From NCBI RefSeq assembly GCF_039831995.1, contig NZ_JBDOIO010000004.1, positions 310,001-374,000 on the forward strand: a DNA stretch of 64,000 nucleotides, written 5' to 3'. This document shows, one piece after another, positions 50,537 through 64,000 of this stretch. The notes beneath the pieces were generated by a model. It was not told the DNA's origin. It ran no database searches and saw only the letters and a list, made by a program, of their open reading frames with translations. The position numbers were made by a program, and so were the translations under genes. The DNA comes from Paenibacillus pabuli (GTDB taxonomy: Bacteria; Bacillota; Bacilli; Paenibacillales; Paenibacillaceae). Numbering within the stretch: position 1 is the stretch's first letter; every line of letters starts with the position of its first letter.

Positions 50537-52177
50537 ATGAACAGGTCTATCGCATGGATGAAATTTATGGCATTGGCAGCAGTATTGGTACTGGTATTGT
50601 CCGGTTGCGGAGCGGGCGGCAGCTCCAGCGGTGCGGCTCAGGCATCAGGTGGTGGGCAGGCCAATGAAGCGGAGGGCGGGAATCTGACGTTCGCTCTTGC
50701 GACTTCACCGGATACGCTGGACCCTCACCGGAGCGGCCTTGCCGTCACGGTACGTGCCATCCGGACCATTTACGACAATCTGGTGGTCCAGCTGCCTGAT
50801 GGTTCCATTAAACCGTGGCTCGCCACCGAATGGAGCGTATCAGAGGATGGCAAGAGTTACACGTTCAAGCTGCGTGAAGACGTGAAGTTTCACGATGGCA
50901 CGCCGTTTAACGCTGAAGCCGTAAAGTACAACCTGGATCGTGTCATCGATCCTGCCACCAAAGCTGCCAATTCCCTTGCGTTGATCAGACCCTATCAATC
51001 TTCCGAGGTCATTGATGAATACACCATCAAGGTGAATCTGGAATCACCATCACAGGCCTTCCTGGGTAACTTAAGCCAGGCTCTGCTGGGTATCGTGTCA
51101 CCTACGGCTGCCAAGAAATATGGCGATCAACTGGGCAAAAATCCGGTAGGCACTGGGCCGTATACCTTCGTGAAATGGGATGAAAATGCGGATATCGTTG
51201 TCACCAAAAACAAGGATTATAAATGGGCCCCAGAGACAGTCGAAAACAAAGCTGCACCTCATCTGGATACAATCACGTTCAAAATTGTACCAGAGGAAGC
51301 GACACGGATCGGAAGCGTACAGAGCGGTCAGGTACTCGCTGCAGAGACCGTCCCACCGCAAAATGTTGCAGCTCTGAAGAATGATCCGAACCAGCAATTG
51401 CTGCAGGCCAATACGGTGGGACTGCCATATACACTCTTCTTCAATCTGCGCAAAGCACCTTGGGATGATGTGAAGGTCAGACAGGCGGTACAATCCGCTG
51501 TAGACGTGGAATCTATCGTCAAAACGTTGTATCTGGGCAACTACGAACGAGCGTGGTCTGCATTGTCTCCTGGCATTTTGGGTTACGATGCCTCGCTGGA
51601 AGGAAGCATCAACCCGGACATCAACAAAGCCAATCAGCTGCTGGATGAGCAGGGCTGGGTCAAGGGTGCGGATGGCTTACGTGAAAAGGATGGTCAGAAA
51701 CTGACGCTGCGTTATGTTGATGGTTCCCCAAACCGGGAAAAGCGCAATGATATCGCTGCCATCATTCAGCAGCAGCTGAAACAGGTTGGCATCGCGGTTG
51801 AAGTTGAAATCACGAAAGACATTGCCACCGTCATTTATCAGAATTGGGACTATGATCTGTATGGCAACAGCCAGGTCAATTCCGATCCGAATGCCCTATA
51901 CGCCTTCTATCATACGAGCGCAGAAGGGGAGCGTCCGACGTTGTCCGGGTTGTCCGATCCGAAGATCGACGAGCTGCTGGAACAGGGAGCGGTGGAGACG
52001 GATCCCGAAAAACGCGTGAAGATCTATAACGAGATTCAGCAATTTCTGATTGATCAGGCGGTCATTCTACCGATCTATGTATTCCCTTATACGGTAGCAG
52101 CATCCAAATCCGTTCAGGGAGTCAAGTTTGATTCGCTTGGGTACCCCTTGTTCAACGACGTGCGAATTCAGCCATAA
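50537..52177 (+). CDS. Peptide/opine-type ABC importer, substrate-binding lipoprotein
   Basis: 546 residues. A signal peptide with lipobox LSGC (Cys24) anchors it outside the membrane. A low-complexity Gly/Ser linker is followed by an SBP family 5 domain: FALATSPDTLDPH, YTFKLREDVKFHDGTPFNAEAV, NPVGTGPYTFVKW. Relatives bind peptides, opines, nickel chelates or glutathione. Position within the monooxygenase/deacylase cluster suggests an S- or N-modified amino-acid derivative as ligand. AGAGGGGG precedes the ATG. Confidence 0.93.
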   Translation: MNRSIAWMKFMALAAVLVLVLSGCGAGGSSSGAAQASGGGQANEAEGGNLTFALATSPDTLDPHRSGLAVTVRAIRTIYDNLVVQLPDGSIKPWLATEWSVSEDGKSYTFKLREDVKFHDGTPFNAEAVKYNLDRVIDPATKAANSLALIRPYQSSEVIDEYTIKVNLESPSQAFLGNLSQALLGIVSPTAAKKYGDQLGKNPVGTGPYTFVKWDENADIVVTKNKDYKWAPETVENKAAPHLDTITFKIVPEEATRIGSVQSGQVLAAETVPPQNVAALKNDPNQQLLQANTVGLPYTLFFNLRKAPWDDVKVRQAVQSAVDVESIVKTLYLGNYERAWSALSPGILGYDASLEGSINPDINKANQLLDEQGWVKGADGLREKDGQKLTLRYVDGSPNREKRNDIAAIIQQQLKQVGIAVEVEITKDIATVIYQNWDYDLYGNSQVNSDPNALYAFYHTSAEGERPTLSGLSDPKIDELLEQGAVETDPEKRVKIYNEIQQFLIDQAVILPIYVFPYTVAASKSVQGVKFDSLGYPLFNDVRIQP

Positions 52178-52219
52178 CATGAGCAGCCCATCACGCATTC
52201 AGGAAGGAGACGACCCGGT

Positions 52220-53152
52220 ATGGTTCAAACGATACTGACTCGGCTTGCAACATCACTATTTGTAATATTCGGAGCTTCGGTGCTGGTGTACTGCATCATG
52301 TATCTTCTGCCGGGTGATCCGGTCCTGCTCATGCTGGATCCATCCTCGGCTACACCGGAGATGATCGAGAATTTGCGGGCGCAGCTTGGTCTGGATCAGC
52401 CGTTTTACATTCAATTTGCGAACTATTTCGGAGATATGCTGCGCGGCGATTTTGGCAAGTCCATGATTAACTCGGATCCAGTGCTTCCCAAAATTCTGGA
52501 ACATTTCCCGGCCACCCTGGCACTGACGGCACTGAGTTCCATCATTGCGATTACCATCGGTATCACGCTTGGCGTGCTGTCCGCCATCCACCGAAATGGC
52601 GTGATTGATTTTATTGCCCGTCTTGTTGGACTGTTTGGCATCTCCATGCCAACGTTCTGGACCGGCATTCTGTTGATCCTGCTGTTCTCGGTTCAGCTCG
52701 GCTGGTTCCCGGCCATGGGCTCGGAGGGCTTTGGTTCATTGGTGCTTCCTGCAGCCACCCTTGGTCTGGTTGGTGCAGGTTTCATCGTACGGATGGTACG
52801 TAACAGTATGCTCGAAATCATTAATGAACCGTTTATCGTCGCATTGCGCGCCAAAGGGCTCACGGAGCGAACGATCATGTACGTTCACGCACTCCGCAAT
52901 GCACTGATTCCGGCTGTAACGGTCATTGGCATGTTGGTTGGGGATCTTCTCGCGGGAACCGTCGTGGTAGAGACCGTCTTCTCCAGACAGGGAATCGGGC
53001 GAATTATTGCCGATGCCTTGATGGCGAAAGACCTGCCTGTTGTACAGGGTGTTGTCTTTTTTACGGCGATTATCTATGTTGTGCTGAATTTGCTGGTGGA
53101 TATATCGTATGCCTACATCGATCCAAGGGTCAGACGTGCAGTCCGCACATGA
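52220..53152 (+). CDS. ABC importer permease, DppB type
   Basis: 310 residues with six membrane spans. MVQTILTRLATSLFVIFGASVLVYCI and FYIQFANYFGDMLRGDFGKS are typical openings of DppB/OppB. The EAA-like loop reads IVALRAKGLTERTIMYVHALRNALIP and couples to an ATPase. AAGGAGACG precedes the ATG. It pairs with the next permease; no ATPase gene follows in this operon. Confidence 0.92.
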   Translation: MVQTILTRLATSLFVIFGASVLVYCIMYLLPGDPVLLMLDPSSATPEMIENLRAQLGLDQPFYIQFANYFGDMLRGDFGKSMINSDPVLPKILEHFPATLALTALSSIIAITIGITLGVLSAIHRNGVIDFIARLVGLFGISMPTFWTGILLILLFSVQLGWFPAMGSEGFGSLVLPAATLGLVGAGFIVRMVRNSMLEIINEPFIVALRAKGLTERTIMYVHALRNALIPAVTVIGMLVGDLLAGTVVVETVFSRQGIGRIIADALMAKDLPVVQGVVFFTAIIYVVLNLLVDISYAYIDPRVRRAVRT

Positions 53153-53198
53153 TCTGCGAGGACCGTCTGTACTTGAGGGATGAGGAAGGAGGATTCTT

Positions 53199-54116
53199 AT
53201 GAGCATGAAACCATTGGTGGGTGACAAAAAGGCATGGACCGGCAGCAAAGGGCGTTTACGCTTGTGGAATCGCCGCTTGGGAGGTTACCGCTTCTCGTTC
53301 GCGGTTTCCCGGTTATTCTTTTATGCAGCGCTGCTGGTCGTGTTATTCACCATTACCTGTGCCATTGTTCCGGGCTGGATTGCTCCTTATGATCCAACTC
53401 AGATGATGACGGATGCAATCCTGCAGGCACCTTCTGCTGTGCATTGGTTCGGGACCGATTATTTCGGAAGGGATATTTTCAGCGTCGTCGTGCATGGCAG
53501 CAGGGATTCACTGCTGATTGGATTCGCCTCGGTGCTTGTCGGTGGCCTGGTGGGAAGTGCCTTGGGGATTGTCTCCGGGTATGTAGGCGGAATGGTGGAT
53601 ACAGCTATCATGCGTACCGTCGATATTCTGATGGCTGTCCCGGGCGTACTGCTGGCCCTGTCCGTAGCCGCGGCACTGGGTCCCGGACTGCTTAACATTG
53701 CACTGGCCGTTGCGGTAGCCTCCATTCCGGGATATGCACGGGTTATGCGCGGGCAGGTGATGTCTGTCAAAAGCCTGCCATTTATCACAGCGACACGATC
53801 GCTTGGCGGCTCGAACGGACGTATTTTCTGGCGGCATGTCCTGCCGCATTCCCTGTCTCCTCTGCTTGTGATGGCAACATTGGGGGTGGGTACTTCCATC
53901 CTGACGGGTTCCGGTCTCAGTTTTCTTGGACTTGGGGTATTGAAGGAAATTCCGGATTGGGGAGCACTGCTCTCGCAGGGACGCGGTTACCTGACCGTAG
54001 CCTGGTGGATCTGTACCTTCCCTGGTCTTGCCATTACTATGTTTGTACTCGCAGTGAATCTGATTGGAGACGATATCCGTGACCGGCTTGATCCAAGAGT
54101 AAAAGGAGCGGCTTGA
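53199..54116 (+). CDS. ABC importer permease, DppC type
   Basis: 305 residues. A basic N-terminus, then about six membrane spans. VPGWIAPYDPTQMMTDAIL and HWFGTDYFGRDIFSVVVHGSRDSL are the DppC/OppC N-terminal signature. FITATRSLGGSNGRIFWRHVLPHSLSP is the coupling loop. AAGGAGG precedes the ATG. Its coding end overlaps the region where the reductase frame begins; the reductase's own ATG lies 27 bases past the stop. Confidence 0.92.
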   Translation: MSMKPLVGDKKAWTGSKGRLRLWNRRLGGYRFSFAVSRLFFYAALLVVLFTITCAIVPGWIAPYDPTQMMTDAILQAPSAVHWFGTDYFGRDIFSVVVHGSRDSLLIGFASVLVGGLVGSALGIVSGYVGGMVDTAIMRTVDILMAVPGVLLALSVAAALGPGLLNIALAVAVASIPGYARVMRGQVMSVKSLPFITATRSLGGSNGRIFWRHVLPHSLSPLLVMATLGVGTSILTGSGLSFLGLGVLKEIPDWGALLSQGRGYLTVAWWICTFPGLAITMFVLAVNLIGDDIRDRLDPRVKGAA

Positions 54117-54142
54117 CCGCTATTCCAAGGAGGAGATTAATG

Positions 54143-54691
54143 ATGTCTCATGTCGTTATTATTGCCGGAGCACCTTCCAAACGTTCGCGTTTGACCGGCC
54201 TAACCGATTATAGCAGCAATAAATTAACCGAAGCAGGTATTACTGTTGAGGTGATACATGTAGCGGATCTGCCAGCTGAAGACCTCGTGCAGGCCCGGTT
54301 CGACAGTTCGCATGTGCGAGATGCGCTAGCCGTAGTTGAAGCAGCAGACGCGGTCATTGTGGCTACGCCTGTTTATAAAGCATCTTACTCCGGTGTACTG
54401 AAGCTGTTCCTGGATCTGATTCCACAGGAGGGGCTTCGCGGTAAAGTGTCTCTCCCGCTTGTCATTGGTGGCTCCATTGCCCATCTGCTGGCTATCGACT
54501 ATGCATTGAAGCCTGTAATCACTGCACTTGGAGGAAGACATATTCTGGGCGGTGTTTACGCGATTGATCAAGGGGTAGAGCGTCTGGAAGACGGGAAATA
54601 TGCGCTCTCGGCGGACATTACAACCCGGTTGGACCGTTCGCTGGATGAATTGATATTGACACTGGAAAAGGATGGTATTACGATTGCTTAA
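54143..54691 (+). CDS. NAD(P)H-dependent FMN reductase, SsuE-like
   Basis: 182 residues of the flavodoxin-like fold. SHVVIIAGAPSKRSRLTGL (phosphate loop), IVATPVYKASYSGVLKLFLDLI (flavin contact) and PLVIGGSIAHLLAIDYALKPV match SsuE. It supplies reduced FMN to the two luciferase-like monooxygenases of the cluster. Two ATGs are adjacent (54140, 54143); the second has the better spacing from AAGGAGGAG. It lies within the importer operon. Confidence 0.9.
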   Translation: MSHVVIIAGAPSKRSRLTGLTDYSSNKLTEAGITVEVIHVADLPAEDLVQARFDSSHVRDALAVVEAADAVIVATPVYKASYSGVLKLFLDLIPQEGLRGKVSLPLVIGGSIAHLLAIDYALKPVITALGGRHILGGVYAIDQGVERLEDGKYALSADITTRLDRSLDELILTLEKDGITIA

Positions 54692-54760
54692 AACCGAGTA
54701 AGTTGATTGGTTAAATTGATATAAGGTCAAACGTCTGTGGACGTGGATGCGGAGGCGCTT

Positions 54761-55633
54761 ATGAATATTGAGAACATTGAAGCGTTTGTATATATCAATC
54801 ATTACGGAAGCTTCAATAAGGCTGCCGAAGTACTCTTTTTGTCCCAACCATCTGTAACGGCTCGTATTCAATCGCTGGAACGTGAGCTCGGCTGCAAGCT
54901 GTTTGATCGGCTGGGCAAACAGATTGTGCTCACGGATGAGGGGAGAAAGTTCCTTCCGTACGCCCAGCAGGTGCTGCAGGTCATCCAAAAGGGCAGACAG
55001 AAGATTCAGCAGCGCCGGACTACACCGGACGCGCTGCGTCTCGGCAGTACTGTATCGGTATCCAATTATGTCATTCCAGACTTCCTGCCCAAAATCAAGG
55101 AAGCCTATCCTGAGGTCAGCATCAAGCTCACCACCGCTACGACAGATCAGTTGATCGCGAAGCTGCTTAATCAGGAGATTGATCTGGCGTTTGTACGCAA
55201 GGTCATGCACCCGGCCATTCGTACCATTGCTTTTTATGAGGACCCGATCCAACTGTATGTTTACAAGGGACATCCATTTATTGAACGCGGACACGTCAGC
55301 ATGGAGGCGATTCGCCATGAGCGGCTGGTCTTCTTCGAATGCGGTTCCCTGGACTGGCTGCGTATTCACCGTGCGTTCGACTCCCTGGACCATCCGCCGG
55401 ATATTACATACCATGTGGATCATTCGGAAACGGCGAAGAAACTGGTTCTGCAGGGAGCAGGTATTGCCTTTCTGCCAGGACTGACCGTGCAGAAGGAAGT
55501 GCAGGACCAGGAACTGTTTCCCATTCAGGTCCATGAAGTTGCTGGTGTATCGTTGCAGATTAGTGTCGTGACGCTAAAAGAAGAACATTCACCGTTTGCA
55601 GAGCCCTTTGGGGAGCTGCTGCGGCAGTTATAG
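54761..55633 (+). CDS. LysR family regulator of the monooxygenase cluster
   Basis: 290 residues. The winged helix holds SFNKAAEVLFLSQPSVTARIQSLERELG; the effector domain begins about residue 90 (DALRLGSTVSVSNYVIPDFL). YtlI and CysL-type regulators occupy the matching place in Bacillus sulfur-salvage loci, activated by O-acetylserine or related signals. The start ATG follows GGAGGCG; the frame starts 8 codons earlier. It is embedded in the operon it probably controls, and is a candidate reader of the repeated motif at 48952 and 50467. Confidence 0.87.
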   Translation: MNIENIEAFVYINHYGSFNKAAEVLFLSQPSVTARIQSLERELGCKLFDRLGKQIVLTDEGRKFLPYAQQVLQVIQKGRQKIQQRRTTPDALRLGSTVSVSNYVIPDFLPKIKEAYPEVSIKLTTATTDQLIAKLLNQEIDLAFVRKVMHPAIRTIAFYEDPIQLYVYKGHPFIERGHVSMEAIRHERLVFFECGSLDWLRIHRAFDSLDHPPDITYHVDHSETAKKLVLQGAGIAFLPGLTVQKEVQDQELFPIQVHEVAGVSLQISVVTLKEEHSPFAEPFGELLRQL

Positions 55634-55690
55634 AAGCAAGAACGGGCTTGGCAGCCGAATACGGCAGCACAATTGGAGGAGGAGAAACGT

Positions 55691-56752
55691 ATGGGGATTC
55701 GTCTTGGCATATTGGATCAGACCCCAATCTATGAAGGGGAGACGCCGGTGGATGCATTCCGGCATACCATTGAGCTGGTGCAGCGTGCAGAGCAGCTTGG
55801 ATTTCACCGGTTCTGGGTATCGGAGCATCACGATTCAGGGCATGTGGCAGGTTCTTCGCCAGAAGTGCTGATTTCTCATTTGCTGGCACATACAGAGCGG
55901 ATTCGTTTGGGTTCCGGCGGGGTGATGCTCCAGCATTACAGTCCTTACAAGGTTGCTGAGAATTTTAATGTGCTCGCAGCGCTCGGACCGGGAAGGATCG
56001 ATCTGGGTATAGGACGTGCGCCAGGAGGACTGCCCCGTTCAACGCAGGCTCTTCAGCAAGGAATCCAGGAGGCAGCCTCACTGAAGGAGAAAATACGGCA
56101 AGTGAAGCAGTTTATTCATAATGAACCGCATGCAGATGAATCCCATCCACTTGCCGGCTTAAGTGCTGCACCTGTATCCGAGATACCTGCAGAGCTGTAT
56201 GTACTCGGAGCAAGTGTCGATAGCGCTGGCATGGCGGCCGAACTCGGACTCCCCTATGTATTTTCCTTGTTTATTAACAGCAATATTGAAGTGGCACAAG
56301 AAGCCCTCCGTGTCTATCGCGAGCAGTTCAACCGTTCAGCGGGCCGGGAGCCTTACGCCGTTCTTGCCATATCATTAATTGTGGCAGAGAGTGAGGAGGA
56401 GGCTGAAGGGCTGGCGAGTGAGCACATGCTGGTCAAGATCCACCTGGAGAATGGCAAAGTGCTGACGGTTGGTTCGGTGGAGCAGGCAGAAGAATTCGGA
56501 CGGCAATCGAACGAGAAATATCGCATTGAGGTTCTGGAGCCAAGTGTAACTCGCGGAACGAAGGAAACGGTAGGTCAGGCTCTGCAGAAATTTCAGGATG
56601 ATTTTGCCATGGATGAACTGATTGTCACGACAGCCACGCGTGATTTCGCGAAACGCATTCGCTCTTTTGAATTGCTGCGCGAGGCACTGGATGAACAGGG
56701 ACTGGGTGAATTCTGGAGTGAATCCGAACCTGCGAAAGCCGCTATTGGTTAG
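55691..56752 (+). CDS. Luciferase-like FMN-dependent monooxygenase (YceB/YtmO-like)
   Basis: 353 residues of the LLM superfamily. RLGILDQTPIYEG, FWVSEHHDS, RIRLGSGGVMLQHYSPYKVAENF and LGIGRAPGG are the group's substrate and flavin blocks. YtmO/CmoO of Bacillus, in a similar gene set, oxidises S-modified cysteines. The start ATG follows GGAGGAGGAG; the TTG at 55673 lies at that ribosome site. It precedes the deacylase by 58 bases. The substrate is inferred only from neighbours. Confidence 0.87.
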   Translation: MGIRLGILDQTPIYEGETPVDAFRHTIELVQRAEQLGFHRFWVSEHHDSGHVAGSSPEVLISHLLAHTERIRLGSGGVMLQHYSPYKVAENFNVLAALGPGRIDLGIGRAPGGLPRSTQALQQGIQEAASLKEKIRQVKQFIHNEPHADESHPLAGLSAAPVSEIPAELYVLGASVDSAGMAAELGLPYVFSLFINSNIEVAQEALRVYREQFNRSAGREPYAVLAISLIVAESEEEAEGLASEHMLVKIHLENGKVLTVGSVEQAEEFGRQSNEKYRIEVLEPSVTRGTKETVGQALQKFQDDFAMDELIVTTATRDFAKRIRSFELLREALDEQGLGEFWSESEPAKAAIG

Positions 56753-56810
56753 AAGAGGATTCAGACCTGCATGTTTTCTGTACATGAATGACGATGAAGG
56801 AGGCAACGTT

Positions 56811-58037
56811 GTGAAGAGTGAGCTGGAACAGACCAAGCCGCAGGCAGAGCAAGAAGAAGAGAGACGCACGCAGATCATCCCTATTGTAACGGATGAAGCA
56901 TTTGCAGAGCGGTTAATTGCGATTCGGCGACATCTGCACCGCCATCCGGAATTGTCAGGCGAGGAAAGGGAAACAACGGCTGCTATTCGTGGTTGGCTGG
57001 AGGAGGAAGGGGTACGTATTGCAGACGAATATTCACTTCGTACGGGCCTTATTGCCGAGATTGGTCAGGGCGACGGCCCAGTTGTCGCCCTAAGAGCAGA
57101 CATTGATGCTCTGCCCATTCAGGAAGAGACGAAGCTGGAATTCGCCTCACAGGTTGCAGGCAAAATGCATGCTTGCGGGCATGATGCACATACGGCGATA
57201 TTGATTGGTGCTGCACGATTGTTGAAACAGCGGGAGTCCGGGCTGCCGGGCAAAGTAAGGCTGCTGTTCCAGCCTTCGGAGGAAAAAGCCACAGGCGCGC
57301 GGCAGGTTATTCAGAGCGGAGCGCTGTCTGACGTCCGTGCCGTGTTTGGTCTGCATAACAAACCGGATCTTCAGGTCGGCACAGTCGGTATCCGGGAAGG
57401 AGCACTTCTGGCAGCGGCAGATGGTTTTGTAGTAAACGTCGAAGGGGTGGGCACACATGCTGCGGTACCGGAAGCGGGAATCGATCCGATTGTTGTTGCC
57501 TCGCATATTGTAACGGCTTTGCAGGCGATTGTGAGCCGCAATGTAGGTGCACAGGAGAGCGCCGTGATCAGCGTGACTAAGATACACAGCGGTACAGCCT
57601 GGAATGTCATTCCGGATCAGGCCATATTGGATGGCACGGTGCGAACCTTTGACGAGAAAGTCCGTGCACGTATTCGTGAACGATTTAACCAGGTCGTGGC
57701 TGGTGTAGCGGCAGCATACGGTACACGTGCGACGGTGCGCTGGATTCAGGGACCGCCTGCGGTGGTTAACGATGCTTCGCTGGCCTCCGCGGCAGAACAG
57801 GTGGCGGTTGAAGTGGGATTGAACAGTGTCCGACCGCTGCCTTCCCCGGCAGGTGAGGATTTTTCCTTTTATCAGAAGGAGGTTCCGGGCCTCTTCCTCT
57901 TCCTGGGTACATCCGGACCGCATGAGTGGCATCATCCTGCTTTTGATCTTGATGAACGGGCGCTGCCGCTGGGAGCGCATCTGCTCGCTGCTTTGGCGGA
58001 GCAAGCGCTGCACAACCTGCAGCTGCAGCGTGATTGA
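56811..58037 (+). CDS. M20-family amidohydrolase (N-acyl amino acid deacylase)
   Basis: 408 residues. Dimetal motifs: RADIDALPIQEET, MHACGHDAHTA (His and Asp ligands), QPSEE, and HEWHHPAFDLDE near the end. The lid domain starts near GVGTHAAVPEAG. Such enzymes remove N-acetyl or N-acyl groups; in sulfur-salvage loci this frees cysteine derivatives. I choose the GTG at 56811 behind AAGGAGG. The frame extends 63 codons into the previous gene without a ribosome site. A terminator follows, closing the cluster. Confidence 0.9.
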   Translation: MKSELEQTKPQAEQEEERRTQIIPIVTDEAFAERLIAIRRHLHRHPELSGEERETTAAIRGWLEEEGVRIADEYSLRTGLIAEIGQGDGPVVALRADIDALPIQEETKLEFASQVAGKMHACGHDAHTAILIGAARLLKQRESGLPGKVRLLFQPSEEKATGARQVIQSGALSDVRAVFGLHNKPDLQVGTVGIREGALLAAADGFVVNVEGVGTHAAVPEAGIDPIVVASHIVTALQAIVSRNVGAQESAVISVTKIHSGTAWNVIPDQAILDGTVRTFDEKVRARIRERFNQVVAGVAAAYGTRATVRWIQGPPAVVNDASLASAAEQVAVEVGLNSVRPLPSPAGEDFSFYQKEVPGLFLFLGTSGPHEWHHPAFDLDERALPLGAHLLAALAEQALHNLQLQRD

Positions 58038-58242: not shown

Positions 58243-58271
58243 TTGACGACCTCAATTTTGTATGCTATATT
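58243..58271 (+). promoter_or_regulatory. Strong promoter of the cnt metallophore operon
   Basis: TTGACG (58243-58248), 17-base spacer, TATATT (58266-58271), about 100 bases before cntK. A palindrome CGATTATTAATCG (58277-58289) covers the start-site region. Confidence 0.75.
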
Positions 58272-58286
58272 TTTCTCGATTATTAA

Positions 58287-58301
58287 TCGTAAAAATTACT
58301 A
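58287..58301. promoter_or_regulatory. Zur-like zinc-repression box
   Basis: TCGTAAAAATTACTA matches the Bacillus Zur consensus TCGTAATNATTACGA at 13 of 15 positions (the wildcard counted). It lies just after the -10 of the cnt promoter, a position that blocks transcription when zinc is plentiful. Confidence 0.6.
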
Positions 58302-58371
58302 TTAACAGAAGCGGGCCGTGCACAGGTGAAACTCATCCGAATCTGAATGAACAGGAATAGAGGTAGCTGGG

Positions 58372-59271
58372 ATGAAACAGGAGATCGAATTTATCAAGTT
58401 TAATCCAACACAGAACATGACGGTTTTGGTGAAAACAAGTCATCCAGCAGAGGAGTACCAACATATCGCTTCAACCATCATGTCCTACGATCATGTATAT
58501 GCGGAGCAGGTCGGATTTATTGTGCCATCGCTTCAGCGCGGAGCTGCAGCACGGTTGCATATGGCCGGAGGAGAGTTTTGTGGTAATGCCTGTATGGCTC
58601 TGGCAGCCTACCTTGCATCTGAACAGGAGATGGATTCTCAAGATTACACTGAATTGCTGCTTGAGGTCTCGGGTACAGATCAGTTGATCACCTGCCAAGT
58701 GAGGAAGGAGCTGAATGAATACTTTTGTCAGGTGACCATGCCGATTCCCAGACAGATTGGACGGCAGACCATAACGTACGAAGGCATCGATCTGGATATG
58801 ATTATTGTCCGGTATGAGGAGTTCATTCATATCGTGGTGGAGGTGGACGGGTTCGATGATGGGATCCGAAAAAGAGCACAAAACCTCGCGCGTCTGCTTG
58901 GACTAACCCTGGGAGACAAACTGATTGGCATTTTGTTGTTCAATCCACGTTCCAAAGAGTTGGCTCCGCTGATTTATGTTCCGGGACTGGATAGCCTGAT
59001 ATGGGAACGGGGATGCGGTTCAGGCACGGCTTCGCTGGGCGCCTATCTGGCCTGGAAGACAGGAAGAGAAATTGCTGCCCGAATTAAACAGCCCGGAGGT
59101 TCGATCAAAGTTGTAGCCCAGATCGATGAACATGGGCTGGGGAGCATTCACATTGAAGGTTCTGTCGGCATTGTGGCACAGGGGAAAGCATTTATTGATG
59201 CACAACAGTTGGACATGAATAAGGGGGAAGCACATGAATACGGTCGTGGATTTTACCAGACAGTTGAATGA
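58372..59271 (+). CDS. cntK: Histidine racemase CntK, opine metallophore synthesis
   Basis: 299 residues of the diaminopimelate-epimerase fold, converting L- to D-histidine, the first building block of staphylopine. The two catalytic cysteines are present: Cys70 in GGEFCGNA and Cys215 in ERGCGSGTAS. The opening IEFIKFNPTQNMTVLV and the late QPGGSIKV follow the CntK pattern rather than true DapF. A GAGGTAGCTGGG ribosome site precedes the ATG. It overlaps cntL by 38 bases and starts the cntKLMABC operon. Confidence 0.9.
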   Translation: MKQEIEFIKFNPTQNMTVLVKTSHPAEEYQHIASTIMSYDHVYAEQVGFIVPSLQRGAAARLHMAGGEFCGNACMALAAYLASEQEMDSQDYTELLLEVSGTDQLITCQVRKELNEYFCQVTMPIPRQIGRQTITYEGIDLDMIIVRYEEFIHIVVEVDGFDDGIRKRAQNLARLLGLTLGDKLIGILLFNPRSKELAPLIYVPGLDSLIWERGCGSGTASLGAYLAWKTGREIAARIKQPGGSIKVVAQIDEHGLGSIHIEGSVGIVAQGKAFIDAQQLDMNKGEAHEYGRGFYQTVE

Positions 59272-60040
59272 TTTTCTGAGTAGCTTTGAACAACTTGCCC
59301 GGAAATACGATCATTCCGTTCATCATGCGGAACAGATGGAGCTTGCCATCAATGCCTATTCCCACTGGATCACCGATAAGCATCACGAGTCATTCTGGGC
59401 AGAGAAGGAACTTGAGGGAAGCGCCGATTTTGAACAGCTTGTACTGGATTTAAGGTGTCAATCTTCCCGCTGTGTAGCGATCATGGAGAAATATCGGGCA
59501 TTGAAGCTGCAGCACGGAGATGGGGAGATCGCGGATTATTTCAGAAATATTGAGGAATGCATTGAGAAGGAATTCGGCAGCTTTCATGTCACTTCAGAGT
59601 CCAAGGTGCTTCTGATCGGCTCGGGTGCATTTCCAATGACTCCCCTGCTTATCGCCAGAAGGACGGGGGCACAGGTGGTAGGCATTGATATTGATGAAGA
59701 GGCAATCGGATTAGGTCAGACTGTGGTGAATACATTGGGGGCTGGTCTCCGCATCCATTTGCAGAAGGCGGCTGTTCAGGAACTCGATTTTACGAAAGAA
59801 GCCACGCATATCATTTTCAGTTCCACGGTCGCTATAAAGTATGACATCCTGGATCAGCTTCATTCACTCACGAATGAAGACGTTGTTGTCGCAATGCGAT
59901 ATGGCAATGGATTGAAGTCCTTGTTCAATTACCCTCAGCAGGAGACAGACCCGCTAAAATGGCGACTCGTTGACAATATTTTGCGACCGCACGATGTGTT
60001 TGACATTGCACTGTATCAGAAACCTTCGTATGTCGGATAA
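59234..60040 (+). CDS. cntL: Nicotianamine synthase-like aminobutyrate transferase CntL
   Basis: 268 residues. It transfers the aminobutyrate part of S-adenosylmethionine to D-histidine. The helical N-terminus is followed by YFRNIEECIEKEFG and a Rossmann SAM site: VLLIGSGAFPMTPLLIARRTGAQVVGIDIDEEA. The sequence VVAMRYGNGLKSLFNYPQQE is a CntL hallmark. The ATG follows AAGGGGGAAG, inside the cntK end. CntM starts 17 bases after its stop. Confidence 0.92.
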   Translation: MNTVVDFTRQLNDFLSSFEQLARKYDHSVHHAEQMELAINAYSHWITDKHHESFWAEKELEGSADFEQLVLDLRCQSSRCVAIMEKYRALKLQHGDGEIADYFRNIEECIEKEFGSFHVTSESKVLLIGSGAFPMTPLLIARRTGAQVVGIDIDEEAIGLGQTVVNTLGAGLRIHLQKAAVQELDFTKEATHIIFSSTVAIKYDILDQLHSLTNEDVVVAMRYGNGLKSLFNYPQQETDPLKWRLVDNILRPHDVFDIALYQKPSYVG

Positions 60041-60056
60041 GGAGAAGGAGGCACAT

Positions 60057-61370
60057 ATGATTGGTTTTGAACGAGTCTTAATCATGGGAACAGGGCCTGC
60101 ATCCGTTCAACTAGCTGTATTATTCAAGAAACAACGAGGCTCAACCATTGGCTTGGCAGGAAGGGAATCGCTTCGATCCAATGAATTCTTCGGCTCCTTG
60201 AAACGTCATGACCAGCACATTCAGGTAAGCGTTCAGAATGAGAAGCATCGGAGTGTGGCAGGCGAGTGTAGAGTGGATCGGATTTTTACCGGGTACAGTC
60301 GGATTGATGGCAGCTGGGATACGCTGATTCTTGCTGTGACGACGGATGCTTATGTTCAGGTATTAAGTCAGGTGAATCCGGATGTCCTGAAGCAAGTGCA
60401 GTGCATCGTGCTGATCTCTCCCACATTTGGATCGAATCGCCTGGTTCATCAGTATGTAAATGAGTTAGGGTACAATCCCGAAGTGATCAGTTTCTCCACC
60501 TATTGTGGGGATACGCGATGGGCGGATCGTCAGCCCTCGAATCATGTCGTGACAACCGGCGTGAAGAAAAAACTATATATCGGTTCCACGCAAACCCCTT
60601 CAGAACGAATGAACGAATTATGCAAAATGGTTGAGCAGCTCGGTGTGGTGATGGAAGTGATGGCCTCCCCGTTGGAAGCGGAGACACGAAACATCTCGCT
60701 GTATGTGCATCCGGCATTGTTCATGAATGACTTTTCTTTGAACGCGATTTTTGGTAACGCTGATGTCCAGACGTATGTTTACAAGATCTACCCGGAAGGG
60801 CCTATCAACCAAGATCTCATTCGGAATATGCTCGCAGGATGGAAAGAAATCATGAGGATTACAGACCGGTTGAACATCCGCCCACTTAATCTGCTTCAAT
60901 TCATGACAGACGATAATTATCCGGTTCATTTGCAGAGTTTATCTCGCCGTGATATCGAAGAATTCACAGGGTTGCAGGACATACATCAGGAGTATTTGCT
61001 GTACATACGGTATACCTCGTTACTGATTGATCCTTTCTCGCAGCCGGACGAACAAGGGAGATATTTTGACTTTTCAGCCGTACCATTTCGGAAGATGTTC
61101 ATCAATCGGGAAGGACAGCTTGAGATCCCAAGGATGCCCCAGGAAGATTATTACCGCATCAAAATCATTCAGGGCATTGCAAGGCATCTCCGGGTGGACT
61201 GCCCCACTATAGACAAATTCATCGCTACCTATGAGAACAAACTACATCAAGTGGTACAGGAACAGAGAGAACTGCCGTTATCCAGCGCATTTCAGATCCA
61301 GACGTTTGCTGGTGATCTGAACATGATCTGTGAAGGACTTGAAAACTATCATCAGGAGGACATGTTGTGA
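60057..61370 (+). CDS. cntM: Opine (staphylopine) dehydrogenase CntM
   Basis: 437 residues. It reductively condenses the CntL product with an alpha-keto acid. The nucleotide loop is MGTGPASVQLA. From memory of the Staphylococcus aureus enzyme, Arg33 and Asp150 set cofactor and keto-acid choice. The matching residues here are Arg36 (in IGLAGRESL) and Asp152 (in FSTYCGDTRW), which predict NADPH and pyruvate. Blocks HAETRNxSLYVHPxLFMNDFS and LLIDPFSQPDE also fit. The ATG follows GAAGGAGG; a longer frame lacks a start signal. It overlaps cntA by 4 bases. Confidence 0.92.
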   Translation: MIGFERVLIMGTGPASVQLAVLFKKQRGSTIGLAGRESLRSNEFFGSLKRHDQHIQVSVQNEKHRSVAGECRVDRIFTGYSRIDGSWDTLILAVTTDAYVQVLSQVNPDVLKQVQCIVLISPTFGSNRLVHQYVNELGYNPEVISFSTYCGDTRWADRQPSNHVVTTGVKKKLYIGSTQTPSERMNELCKMVEQLGVVMEVMASPLEAETRNISLYVHPALFMNDFSLNAIFGNADVQTYVYKIYPEGPINQDLIRNMLAGWKEIMRITDRLNIRPLNLLQFMTDDNYPVHLQSLSRRDIEEFTGLQDIHQEYLLYIRYTSLLIDPFSQPDEQGRYFDFSAVPFRKMFINREGQLEIPRMPQEDYYRIKIIQGIARHLRVDCPTIDKFIATYENKLHQVVQEQRELPLSSAFQIQTFAGDLNMICEGLENYHQEDML

Positions 61371-62986
61371 AAAAGGGAAGATCCAGTATGGGCTTAAGTA
61401 TTGTATTCGCGCTGGTTTTGGTCGTATTGGCCGGTTGCGGCGAGAAGGGAACTGCACAGACGGGGGCAGCAGATGGGGAGAAGAAGACGGATCTGATCTA
61501 TGCCTCCGCCAAGGATATTAATGATATGAATCCCCATTTGTATACAGGTTCCATGCCTGCTCAAGGGATGGTATATGAGTCATTGGTAGAGAACACGGCC
61601 GATGGCATTCAGCCCTTGCTTGCGGAATCATGGGATATTTCCGAGGACGGTAAGGTGTATACCTTTCATTTGCGAAAAGACGTGAAATTTCAGGACGGAG
61701 AACCTTTCAACGCCGAGGCGGTCAAGGCGAACTTTGATGCGGTTCAGGCCAATAGTGAGAAACATGCGTGGATTAAGCTGTCCACCAAAATTGTGAGTAC
61801 AAATGTCATTGATGAACATACCGTTGAATTGGTGCTGTCTAGTACCTATTATCCGACATTGGTGGAATTGTCCATGACCAGACCCTATGTGTTCATTTCC
61901 CCGAAAGACATGATCAATGGCGGGACCAAAGATGGTGTGAATGGTTACCATGGAACAGGGCCATACCTGCTTACAGAGCACAATGTGGATGAAAACGCGA
62001 CGTTTGTTGCAAATGAAAACTATTGGGGAGGCAAACCCGAAATTCAAAAAATCGTAGCCAAAGTTCTCCCGGCAGGAGAGACAACGTTTCTGGCCTTGCA
62101 AAAGGGTGAAATTGACTTCGTGTTCACGGATGACCGGGGTGCCGACAGTATTGATGTCCATGCCATGAATCAACTGGCGGAATCAGGAGAGTATCAGGTC
62201 GTACGAAGTGAGCCGATGAACACGAGCATCATTGCGGCCAATAGCAGCAAAAAGGATAACCCGGTCAGTGAAACAGCCGTTCGGGAAGCCATCTGGCATG
62301 CCATCGATCGGGATACGATCAGCAACGACATTTTTGAGGGGACACAGACACCTGCCCAGACCCTATTCTCTTCCAATGTGAATTACGCCGACGTGGAATT
62401 GAAGACACGACTTTATGATGTAAGTGCTGCAGAGAAGCTGCTGGACGAAGCGGGCTGGACTTTAGCTAGTGGTGCTGCTGTACGAACCAAAGAAGGGCAA
62501 GAGCTGAAGATGGATTTATATTATGACAGCAATTCCTCTACGCAGAAAACACAGGCTGAATACATTCAAAATGAATTGAAAAACATCGGTATCCAGCTAT
62601 CCATTATCGGGGAAGAATCTTCTTCCATCGCAAACAGAAGATCTACGGGAGAGTACGATCTGCTGTTCAATCAAACCTGGGGACTGGCTTATGATCCTCA
62701 GAGCACCATTTCCGCATTTGCCTCAAGCTCAGCCTATCTGCATACGACAAGCGGAATGCCTGACGCCGAGGAAATGTACGCCAAGATTGAAGACGTGATG
62801 GTATCCACCGATGAGAATACAAGGAAATCACTATACGCCGACATCATGACCATGGTTCACGAGGAAGCCGTGTTTATCCCTATTACGAACGGAAGCATGA
62901 CCATCGTTGCACCAAAGAACCTGGATGGCATTGCATTTAAGCAGACCCAATTTGAGCTGCCATTCGAGCGAATGAAATTTCAATAG
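61367..62986 (+). CDS. cntA: Metal-metallophore-binding lipoprotein CntA
   Basis: 539 residues. A signal peptide with lipobox LAGC (Cys24) is followed by an SBP family 5 domain (YTFHLRKDVKFQDGEPFNAEAVKANFD, GYHGTGPYLLTEHNVDENATF, FNQTWGLAYDPQST). In staphylococci CntA captures the metal-staphylopine complex for import. It starts with GTG overlapping the cntM stop, behind AGGAGG, so translation is coupled. It is distinct from the sulfur-cluster binding protein at 50537, though of the same family. Confidence 0.9.
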   Translation: MKKGRSSMGLSIVFALVLVVLAGCGEKGTAQTGAADGEKKTDLIYASAKDINDMNPHLYTGSMPAQGMVYESLVENTADGIQPLLAESWDISEDGKVYTFHLRKDVKFQDGEPFNAEAVKANFDAVQANSEKHAWIKLSTKIVSTNVIDEHTVELVLSSTYYPTLVELSMTRPYVFISPKDMINGGTKDGVNGYHGTGPYLLTEHNVDENATFVANENYWGGKPEIQKIVAKVLPAGETTFLALQKGEIDFVFTDDRGADSIDVHAMNQLAESGEYQVVRSEPMNTSIIAANSSKKDNPVSETAVREAIWHAIDRDTISNDIFEGTQTPAQTLFSSNVNYADVELKTRLYDVSAAEKLLDEAGWTLASGAAVRTKEGQELKMDLYYDSNSSTQKTQAEYIQNELKNIGIQLSIIGEESSSIANRRSTGEYDLLFNQTWGLAYDPQSTISAFASSSAYLHTTSGMPDAEEMYAKIEDVMVSTDENTRKSLYADIMTMVHEEAVFIPITNGSMTIVAPKNLDGIAFKQTQFELPFERMKFQ

Positions 62987-63021
62987 GGCACATTGGATTT
63001 CGTGTTGAAAAGGAGAAGGAT

Positions 63022-63957
63022 ATGGGGAGTTTTATCGTCAAACGAATTCTGCTCGCAATACCCCTGCTGTTGATTATTTCGTTTATAACCTTTGTTCTGA
63101 TCAATCTTTCACCGCTGGATCCTGCCGTTGTGGTGTTACAGGCGCAGGAAGTTCCGCAGATTACGGATGAGCTGGTTGCCCAAACCAAGGCGGAGCTTGG
63201 CATGGATCAGCCGTTTTTGATTCAATACGGGAACTGGCTGCTGGCTTGCCTGAAGCTGGACTTTGGCGAGTCCTATGTGACCGGGAATTCCGTCTGGTCC
63301 ATGATTGGCCCGGCATTTGTGAACACGCTCAAATTAACGCTGATATCTTCCGTGTTCATTATTCTCTTCTCGATCCTGTTAGGTGTTGTCTGTGCGATGA
63401 GGGAAGGGAAAATGATGGATAAGTCCGTACGGGGCTTCTCCTTCCTGCTGACGGCGATACCTTCCTACTGGCTTGCAGCTATGCTGATCTGGTACTTCTC
63501 CGTCAAGCTTGATCTGCTGCCCACCAGCGGAATGGATTCGCCGCAGAGCTATATTCTTCCGGTCATCGTCATTACGGTAAGTTATGTAGGTATCTACTTC
63601 AGGAGCGTCAGAAGCTCCATGCTGAACAATTTGAATGAAGATTATGTCCTTTACGCGCGAGCCAGCGGAATTCCCGAGAGAAGGGTAACACTGCATATTT
63701 TGAGAAATTCACTGCAGGTGTCCGTTTCCATCTTCTGTATGGCCATACCCATTGTACTTGGAAGCACCGTTGTGATTGAGAATGTGTTTGCCTGGCCAGG
63801 TCTCGGGCGGCTAAGCGTCAGATCCATACTGAGCAGGGACTATCCGATTATCCAGGCATACGTGCTTATTCTGGCTGTCACTTTTGTGCTGTTCAATACG
63901 CTTTCCGATATCGTGAACGCAGCAATGAATCCCAAACTCAGAAAGGAATTCGAATGA
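63022..63957 (+). CDS. cntB: Metallophore ABC importer permease CntB
   Basis: 311 residues with six membrane spans. MGSFIVKRILLAIPLLLIISFITFVLINLSP opens it, and the coupling loop is DYVLYARASGIPERRVTLHILRNSLQ. DppB/NikB-like family; its place directly after cntA identifies it as CntB. AAGGAGAAGG precedes the ATG. Its stop overlaps the start of the next permease by 4 bases. Confidence 0.92.
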   Translation: MGSFIVKRILLAIPLLLIISFITFVLINLSPLDPAVVVLQAQEVPQITDELVAQTKAELGMDQPFLIQYGNWLLACLKLDFGESYVTGNSVWSMIGPAFVNTLKLTLISSVFIILFSILLGVVCAMREGKMMDKSVRGFSFLLTAIPSYWLAAMLIWYFSVKLDLLPTSGMDSPQSYILPVIVITVSYVGIYFRSVRSSMLNNLNEDYVLYARASGIPERRVTLHILRNSLQVSVSIFCMAIPIVLGSTVVIENVFAWPGLGRLSVRSILSRDYPIIQAYVLILAVTFVLFNTLSDIVNAAMNPKLRKEFE

Positions 63958-64000
63958 GAAACCTTCGTAATTTAAGCCAGGATAAGCTAGCCATGGCGTC
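63954..64000 (+). CDS. cntC: Metallophore ABC importer permease CntC (truncated by window end)
   Basis: The ATG overlaps the cntB stop (ATGA). Only the first 15 codons, MRNLRNLSQDKLAMA, are visible. The opening with a short basic head fits DppC/NikC permeases. Identity is taken mainly from operon order; ATPase genes cntD and cntF are expected outside the window. Confidence 0.7.
   Translation, partial: MRNLRNLSQDKLAMA

Follow-up and report, generated by a model that had tools for sequence, protein, structure and literature searches.

Which opine metallophore would be made by the cnt operon at the right-hand end of the 64,000-nucleotide stretch of Paenibacillus pabuli DNA analysed here (the window; its source genome is 6.95 Mb in 5 contigs)? 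Five genes, cntK, cntL, cntM, cntA and cntB, follow each other on the + strand at 58372-63957 in the list of open reading frames (ORFs). We consider it very likely that they belong to a complete opine-metallophore operon of the CntKLM-ABCDF-E type, probably controlled by Zur, which makes staphylopine. That the operon is real, complete and well identified was confirmed; it is ordinary for Paenibacillaceae.

The prediction of the product is based on two rules, both stated in a 2020 survey (PMC7438024, cited here from excerpts, as are the other papers); one concerns the presence of cntK and the other residue 150 of CntM. As to the first, a histidine racemase gene is present with its catalytic cysteines: Glu45, Cys70 and Cys215 of CntK aligned with the glutamate and both cysteines of the Staphylococcus aureus enzyme. 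As to the second, MAFFT placed Asp150 of S. aureus CntM at Asp152 of the window CntM, the position being Ala in Pseudomonas aeruginosa; the window enzyme has the staphylopine-type Asp and not the bacillopaline-type Ala. The surrounding FSTYCGDTR aligned without gaps to FSTYLGDTR of S. aureus, with SLSSYYAATK at the same place in P. aeruginosa, and across 22 aligned sequences the Asp never varied within its G-D-T-R setting, which S. aureus CntM shares. By the published rules, which rest on few enzymes, Asp152 and the presence of cntK give staphylopine, and this should be the product. The preliminary description of this DNA had named Asp152 as the counterpart of position 150 and Arg36 as the cofactor residue, and had predicted staphylopine on that ground; the alignment with the S. 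aureus and P. aeruginosa enzymes, together with the presence of cntK, supported this rule-based prediction.

The rest of the CntM protein was consistent with this assignment. The query without its first Met matched S. aureus staphylopine dehydrogenase across 5-428 with E 1.5e-127, and the predicted fold had staphylopine dehydrogenase as its best match, the Z value being tied with those of the pseudopaline and yersinopine enzymes. We found 15 alignment columns that divide the Asp rows with cntK (98, counting the window) from 20 racemase-less rows, and at every one of them the window CntM agreed with the majority of the cntK clade.

The operon genes, tightly packed from cntK to cntC with overlaps between cntK and cntL and between cntM and cntA, are as follows (a coordinate in L002, the numbering used past the window end, is the window coordinate minus 50000).

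58372..59271, + strand: cntK, histidine racemase (DapF-like), 299 residues; an ORF with closest solved structure 6l4l, the aligned Glu45, Cys70 and Cys215, and 240.8 bits to NCBIfam His_racem_CntK (cut-off 300)
59234..60040, + strand: cntL, nicotianamine-synthase-like aminobutanoyltransferase, 268 residues; closest solved structure 7c7m (staphylopine biosynthesis enzyme CntL, E 3.8e-64), Pfam NAS 28.3 bits (cut-off 27.1), NCBIfam 294.7 bits (cut-off 350)
60057 (ATG)..61370, + strand: cntM, opine (staphylopine-type) dehydrogenase, 437 residues, with Asp152 and Arg36; PF10100 647.6 bits, alignments and fold matches
61367..62986, + strand: cntA, metallophore-binding lipoprotein of the ATP-binding cassette (ABC) importer, 539 residues; NCBIfam opine_bind_CntA 956.4 bits (cut-off 800), closest solved structure 5yh8, E 1.6e-184
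63022..63957, + strand: cntB, importer permease, 311 residues; Opp1B nickel/cobalt permease model 502.3 bits (cut-off 380)
63954..64000 in the window and on to L002:14850 (L002 13954-14850), + strand: cntC, permease; opine_perm_CntC 506.8 bits (cut-off 440)
L002 14816-15655, past the window end: cntD, passing both the CntD and the CntF models
L002 15642-16394, past the window end: cntF, named by position
L002 16408-17616, past the window end: cntE, exporter of the major facilitator superfamily (MFS); NCBIfam CntE model 689.5 bits (cut-off 235)

We take 6l4l, deposited as a diaminopimelate epimerase, to be S. aureus CntK. A weak match of CntL to a TALE protein in the PDB was set aside as chance.

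ORFs, profile matches and structure matches thus agreed on cntK, cntL and cntM standing in order with importer genes, as first described. The window itself contains K, L, M, A and B plus only the first 47 bases of cntC; reading past its end, as had been proposed, we found cntC, cntD, cntE and, by position, cntF. The locus has the layout by which PMC7438024 recognises opine-type zincophore clusters, with a NAS-type cntL directly upstream of cntM and with genes for import and efflux no more than six ORFs away from cntM, the six genes after it being cntA-B-C-D-F-E. Chance origin of the cluster was excluded because the gene order is kept in relatives.

Several observations weigh against the staphylopine assignment or against too close an equation with S. 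aureus. The window CntM is only about 46% identical to S. aureus CntM, and CntK (240.8/300), CntL (294.7/350) and CntM (546/675) did not reach the NCBIfam equivalog cut-offs. Scores under the curated cut-offs mark them as diverged members; we infer that the three models were built for staphylococcal proteins. The CntF protein had no opine-specific model among the 25 models listed in the NCBIfam search. CntA does not discriminate product type, since the CntA of an Ala locus, L135, is 67% identical to that of the window, and for this reason CntA was rejected as a marker of the product. Finally, according to PMC7438024, residue 150 tunes rather than fully sets the keto-acid preference, more residues likely matter, and substitution of Ala into S. 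aureus CntM led to both keto acids being similarly preferred.

It is also conceivable that CntM is promiscuous, or takes a different keto acid, and would yield a mixture or an opine not yet described. The survey's remarks on contributing residues and on other residues at 150 speak for it, as does Ser at this position in four racemase-less loci of Paenibacillaceae. However, Asp150 stands here within the invariant G-D-T-R, just as in S. aureus, and the operon ORFs showed no additional enzyme gene; we regard such a product as quite improbable.

With respect to the cofactor, the preliminary description had named reduced nicotinamide adenine dinucleotide phosphate (NADPH), a claim that stood only in part. 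Arg33 of S. aureus CntM, which with Lys39 forms what we take to be the NADPH-binding pair, aligned with Arg36 of the window CntM, the P. aeruginosa residue being His. The S. aureus loop carrying Lys39 is two residues longer than that of the window CntM, and MAFFT placed Arg40 opposite the lysine. S. aureus CntM prefers NADPH and P. aeruginosa CntM prefers NADH (PMC5719457), although structures of the latter, with its His at 33, exist with NADP+ according to PDB entry titles. NADPH may plausibly serve as the cofactor, but the call is weakly supported because Lys39 is not conserved, a further point against a full match to the S. aureus enzyme.

In the cycle that we propose for a staphylopine-making operon, CntK would convert L-His to D-His and CntL would add to it the aminobutanoyl group of S-adenosylmethionine. 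CntM would then condense this intermediate reductively with pyruvate, probably with NADPH, to give staphylopine. CntE would export the product, and CntABCDF would re-import the metal complex, mainly with zinc, under zinc scarcity.

Such a role would fit the regulatory sequences. Upstream of cntK we found the following box.

58287..58301, upstream of cntK: Zur-like box TCGTAAAAATTACTA, 2 mismatches to TCGTAATNATTACGA

Mismatches were scored against TCGTAATNATTACGA, a consensus presumed from Bacillus Zur. Similar boxes, each with 1 mismatch, at L002 17710 and 19222, precede two genes lying past cntE, a second CntE-like MFS gene and a CobW-type GTPase gene. The three boxes fell within 20 kb, a number that 3 of 200 shuffles also reached. 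Across loci, the best box upstream of cntK had at most 2 mismatches in 91/100 and at most 3 in 97/100, compared to 0/100 and 2/100 in the shuffled controls (one each). The CobW-type gene had a box of no more than 2 mismatches in 39/40 loci vs 1/40 shuffled; cntE had such a box in 0/94. We conclude that the operon is probably Zur-controlled, as judged from these motifs.

In S. aureus, cnt expression is chiefly set by zinc abundance (PMC5666155).

Next comes the question of whether the window genome is unusual. The preliminary description had treated the bacillopaline maker Paenibacillus mucilaginosus as the norm and the present genome as the other chemotype. PF10100 matches were found in 48/75 genomes of the genus and 118/394 of the family. 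The CntM region was read in 114 of these 118 (49 genus loci, 70 loci of other genera and the window's own), leaving out G124, G243, G322 and G336, which had short fragments only. This gave 124 CntM rows, not counting the window and two references. With cntK there were 97 Asp and 2 Ala rows; without it, 16 Ala, 4 Ser and 2 Asp; the remainder were 2 fragments without the residue and 1 Gly from a broken protein. Five rows below 85% coverage, two of them Asp with cntK, were dropped before tree building. Among near-full-length cntK-linked rows with a readable residue, Asp was at position 150 in 96/98 (95 in the tree plus G000), a count that excludes the Gly row L194 and includes a few rows, e.g., G037, from frame-broken genes. 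The G of L194 and the D of L195 came from broken proteins and were not trusted.

In the tree of 122 CntM rows, made by a quick method with support from the Shimodaira-Hasegawa-like approximate likelihood ratio test, the cntK-linked rows grouped with S. aureus CntM (support 100), and the 20 racemase-less Ala/Ser rows grouped with P. aeruginosa CntM (support 100, on a long P. aeruginosa branch). Asp and cntK are strongly associated, although the tree shows only few independent changes (5) behind this. In genome-wide searches, in which no more than a few candidates were scored in each genome for CntM, CntK and the second MFS protein, 101/394 genomes were positive for CntK, and 100 of those had CntM.

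As read from these alignments, then, the cntK-linked clade in Paenibacillaceae normally has Asp150, and the bacillopaline-type Ala is a rare exception. The excerpts of PMC7438024 agree: in its cluster 1 (Bacillaceae, Paenibacillaceae and Actinobacteria, P. mucilaginosus CntM among them) most members have Asp, some Ala and two Gly, so that the supposedly special chemotype is already the majority in print. The casting of P. mucilaginosus as the norm was not supported by these counts. Nor was the statement that staphylopine is otherwise known from staphylococci, the 96/98 being predictions from sequence. The residues, the racemase and the rule-based product of the preliminary description were upheld, and its view of this genome as the other chemotype was not, since Asp appears to be the family norm.

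Of the two exceptions, L176 (G127) is the earliest branch of the cntK-linked clade in the tree, and L135 (genome G310) is nested among Asp rows. The L135 CntM had the cntK-clade state at 13 of the 15 dividing columns, departing at 150 and 348, and it differs more widely elsewhere, being 56% identical to the window CntM.

Other rows depart from the usual pairing in different ways. G292 (L173) has an intact Asp CntM and CntL, and no CntK match was found in its genome at E up to 1e-20; by the rules, this relative of Paenibacillus would read as yersinopine-like. The racemase-less CntM of L185, L186, L189 and L191 have Ser150 and form one clade (support 99), which may use another keto acid. In L138 (G349), CntK and CntL occupy a single 561-residue open frame and are apparently fused. 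L081 and L082, second loci of G034 and G003, have a racemase-less cntL-cntM pair with Ala150 and two Opp5-type importer sets, L081 also having an EamA exporter and a methyltransferase. Both genomes also carry an Asp, cntK-linked operon, and both types likewise occur in G273 and G281.

The main competing view is that the operon makes bacillopaline, from D-His and alpha-ketoglutarate, as similarity-based labels of related genomes imply. In the papers' excerpts, Paenibacillus clusters are called bacillopaline, in two papers with antiSMASH as the source and each time for a P. amylolyticus strain; a third paper counts 24 bacillopaline clusters in the context of clusters above 70% similarity, and a fourth takes P. 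mucilaginosus KNP414 for comparison, the excerpted rows showing 60-73% protein identity. These assignments, and the existence of L135 and L176, favour that view. Against it, position 150 is Asp in the window and likewise in each of the 42 named loci that have a CntM, all of them with cntK, including P. amylolyticus Heshi-A3 (L094). This named-genome scan finds close relatives only, and many of its loci repeat genomes of the family census; it includes a few Bacillus, Peribacillus, Halobacillus, Evansella and Brevibacillus. Paenibacillus sp. ACRRY (92%) and P. illinoisensis NBRC 15959 (90%) had the nearest CntM among the named genomes. We consider bacillopaline an unlikely product, if somewhat less so than a mixture or a new opine. 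Relabelling from bacillopaline to staphylopine is probably warranted where CntM has Asp, which for the strains so labelled is a prediction.

That the cluster is a decayed or silent remnant is hardly credible. Decay does occur among relatives (G037 has broken CntM and CntK, and G005 broken cntA, cntE and second MFS genes), but in the window genome all operon genes are intact open frames with key residues and boxes kept. Piracy, i.e., import without synthesis, was rejected for the genus: orthologous CntA (at least 780 bits) was found in 0 of 27 CntM-less genomes in a search at E up to 1e-150, four of which had CntA paralogues of 519-536 bits.

Downstream of the staphylopine-type operon lie the two further genes with boxes.

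L002:17774-19000, 3.8 kb past the window end: second CntE-like MFS gene; NCBIfam CntE model 395.1 bits (cut-off 235)
from L002 19283, past the window end: CobW-type GTPase gene

The second MFS protein is 43% identical to CntE, and both exceed the NCBIfam CntE cut-off. It adjoins cntE in 36 of the 48 CntM-bearing genus genomes, with a remnant in one more, and for this reason it possibly serves the cnt operon; in three of the 36 (G005, G021 and G054) it is broken. A mere recent copy of cntE was not supported, given the 43% identity and the location of relatives in other genera away from cnt.

One may instead suppose a zinc-starvation cycle independent of CntLM, in which the second MFS protein exports a chelator made elsewhere in the cell and a Nik/Opp5-type importer retrieves it. 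This idea comes from the higher conservation than that of cntE, the box of its own in the window genome, the presence in CntM-less genomes and the adjacency to importers. The median identity to the window genome in core genus loci was 86.4% for the second MFS (27, with 6 of 33 values, below 60% identity, taken as cntE matches and left out), 73.7% for cntE (33) and 66.4% for cntM (34). Matches at E up to 1e-110 were found in 70/394 genomes, and CntM is missing from 18 of these, 9 in the genus and 9 beyond it; outside the genus, identities of 46-70% indicate relatives, not sure orthologues. Six of the nine CntM-less genus genomes (G004, G016, G032, G036, G067 and G068) have the gene in its usual place behind conserved upstream genes, with the cnt genes gone save for fragments in G004 and G016. 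Of the 34 loci at which the gene stands away from cnt, 12 have a Nik/Opp5/Cnt-type importer set next to it (L206, L207, L210-L212, L218, L224-L228 and L230), four of them in CntM-less genomes (G102, G326, G360 and G362). In L230 (G326), the second MFS type and a full-strength CntE relative (712 bits) come after a Nik-type importer that has a Zur-like box. On the other side, no importer set was counted in 22 of the 34 loci, of which L229 has its flank cut by a contig end and six have the conserved upstream ABC genes, which were not counted. The gene's own box was found in only 5/36 loci, all in the close clade of the window genome (L002, L062 and L069-L071), so that separate Zur control is not general. 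Among the matches listed for a CntE paralogue or for Zur and metallophores in Paenibacillus, no title or abstract opening described such a cycle. We find it a doubtful though conceivable arrangement.

On the other side of the operon, at window positions 50537-58037, there are peptide/nickel-type ABC, flavin mononucleotide (FMN)-reductase-like, LysR-type, luciferase-like monooxygenase and M20 amidohydrolase genes (named by eye). The ABC genes recur in relatives upstream of cnt or of its empty site.

The analysis would be of use in three respects: the correction of a label, a natural Ala variant and the second exporter. The bacillopaline label would probably have to be corrected, as the residue rule gives staphylopine for nearly all racemase-linked clusters read in the family. 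With its Ala inside a clade of Asp enzymes, L135 is a natural case on which the one-residue rule can be tested. If soil and plant bacilli make staphylopine, it may be a good shared with staphylococci, with possible cross-feeding.

Compared with known systems, the locus resembles S. aureus Cnt (CntKLM, CntABCDF and CntE), with the same gene set, Opp-type importer and MFS exporter, Asp150 and Arg33 in CntM, and the aligned glutamate and cysteines in CntK. It differs from it in a CntM of about 46% identity with a shorter cofactor loop lacking Lys39, and in the second CntE-like MFS and CobW-type genes downstream. The bacillopaline cluster of P. mucilaginosus is of the same operon type and has the racemase, and its CntM falls in cluster 1 of PMC7438024 together with those of Paenibacillaceae and Bacillaceae; however, according to that survey, it has Ala150, compared to Asp in the window. 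The pseudopaline (P. aeruginosa) and yersinopine (Yersinia pestis) systems share the CntL and CntM homologues and the CntM fold, whereas they are without racemase and have EamA exporters (PMC7438024), and P. aeruginosa CntM has Ala at 150 and His at 33.

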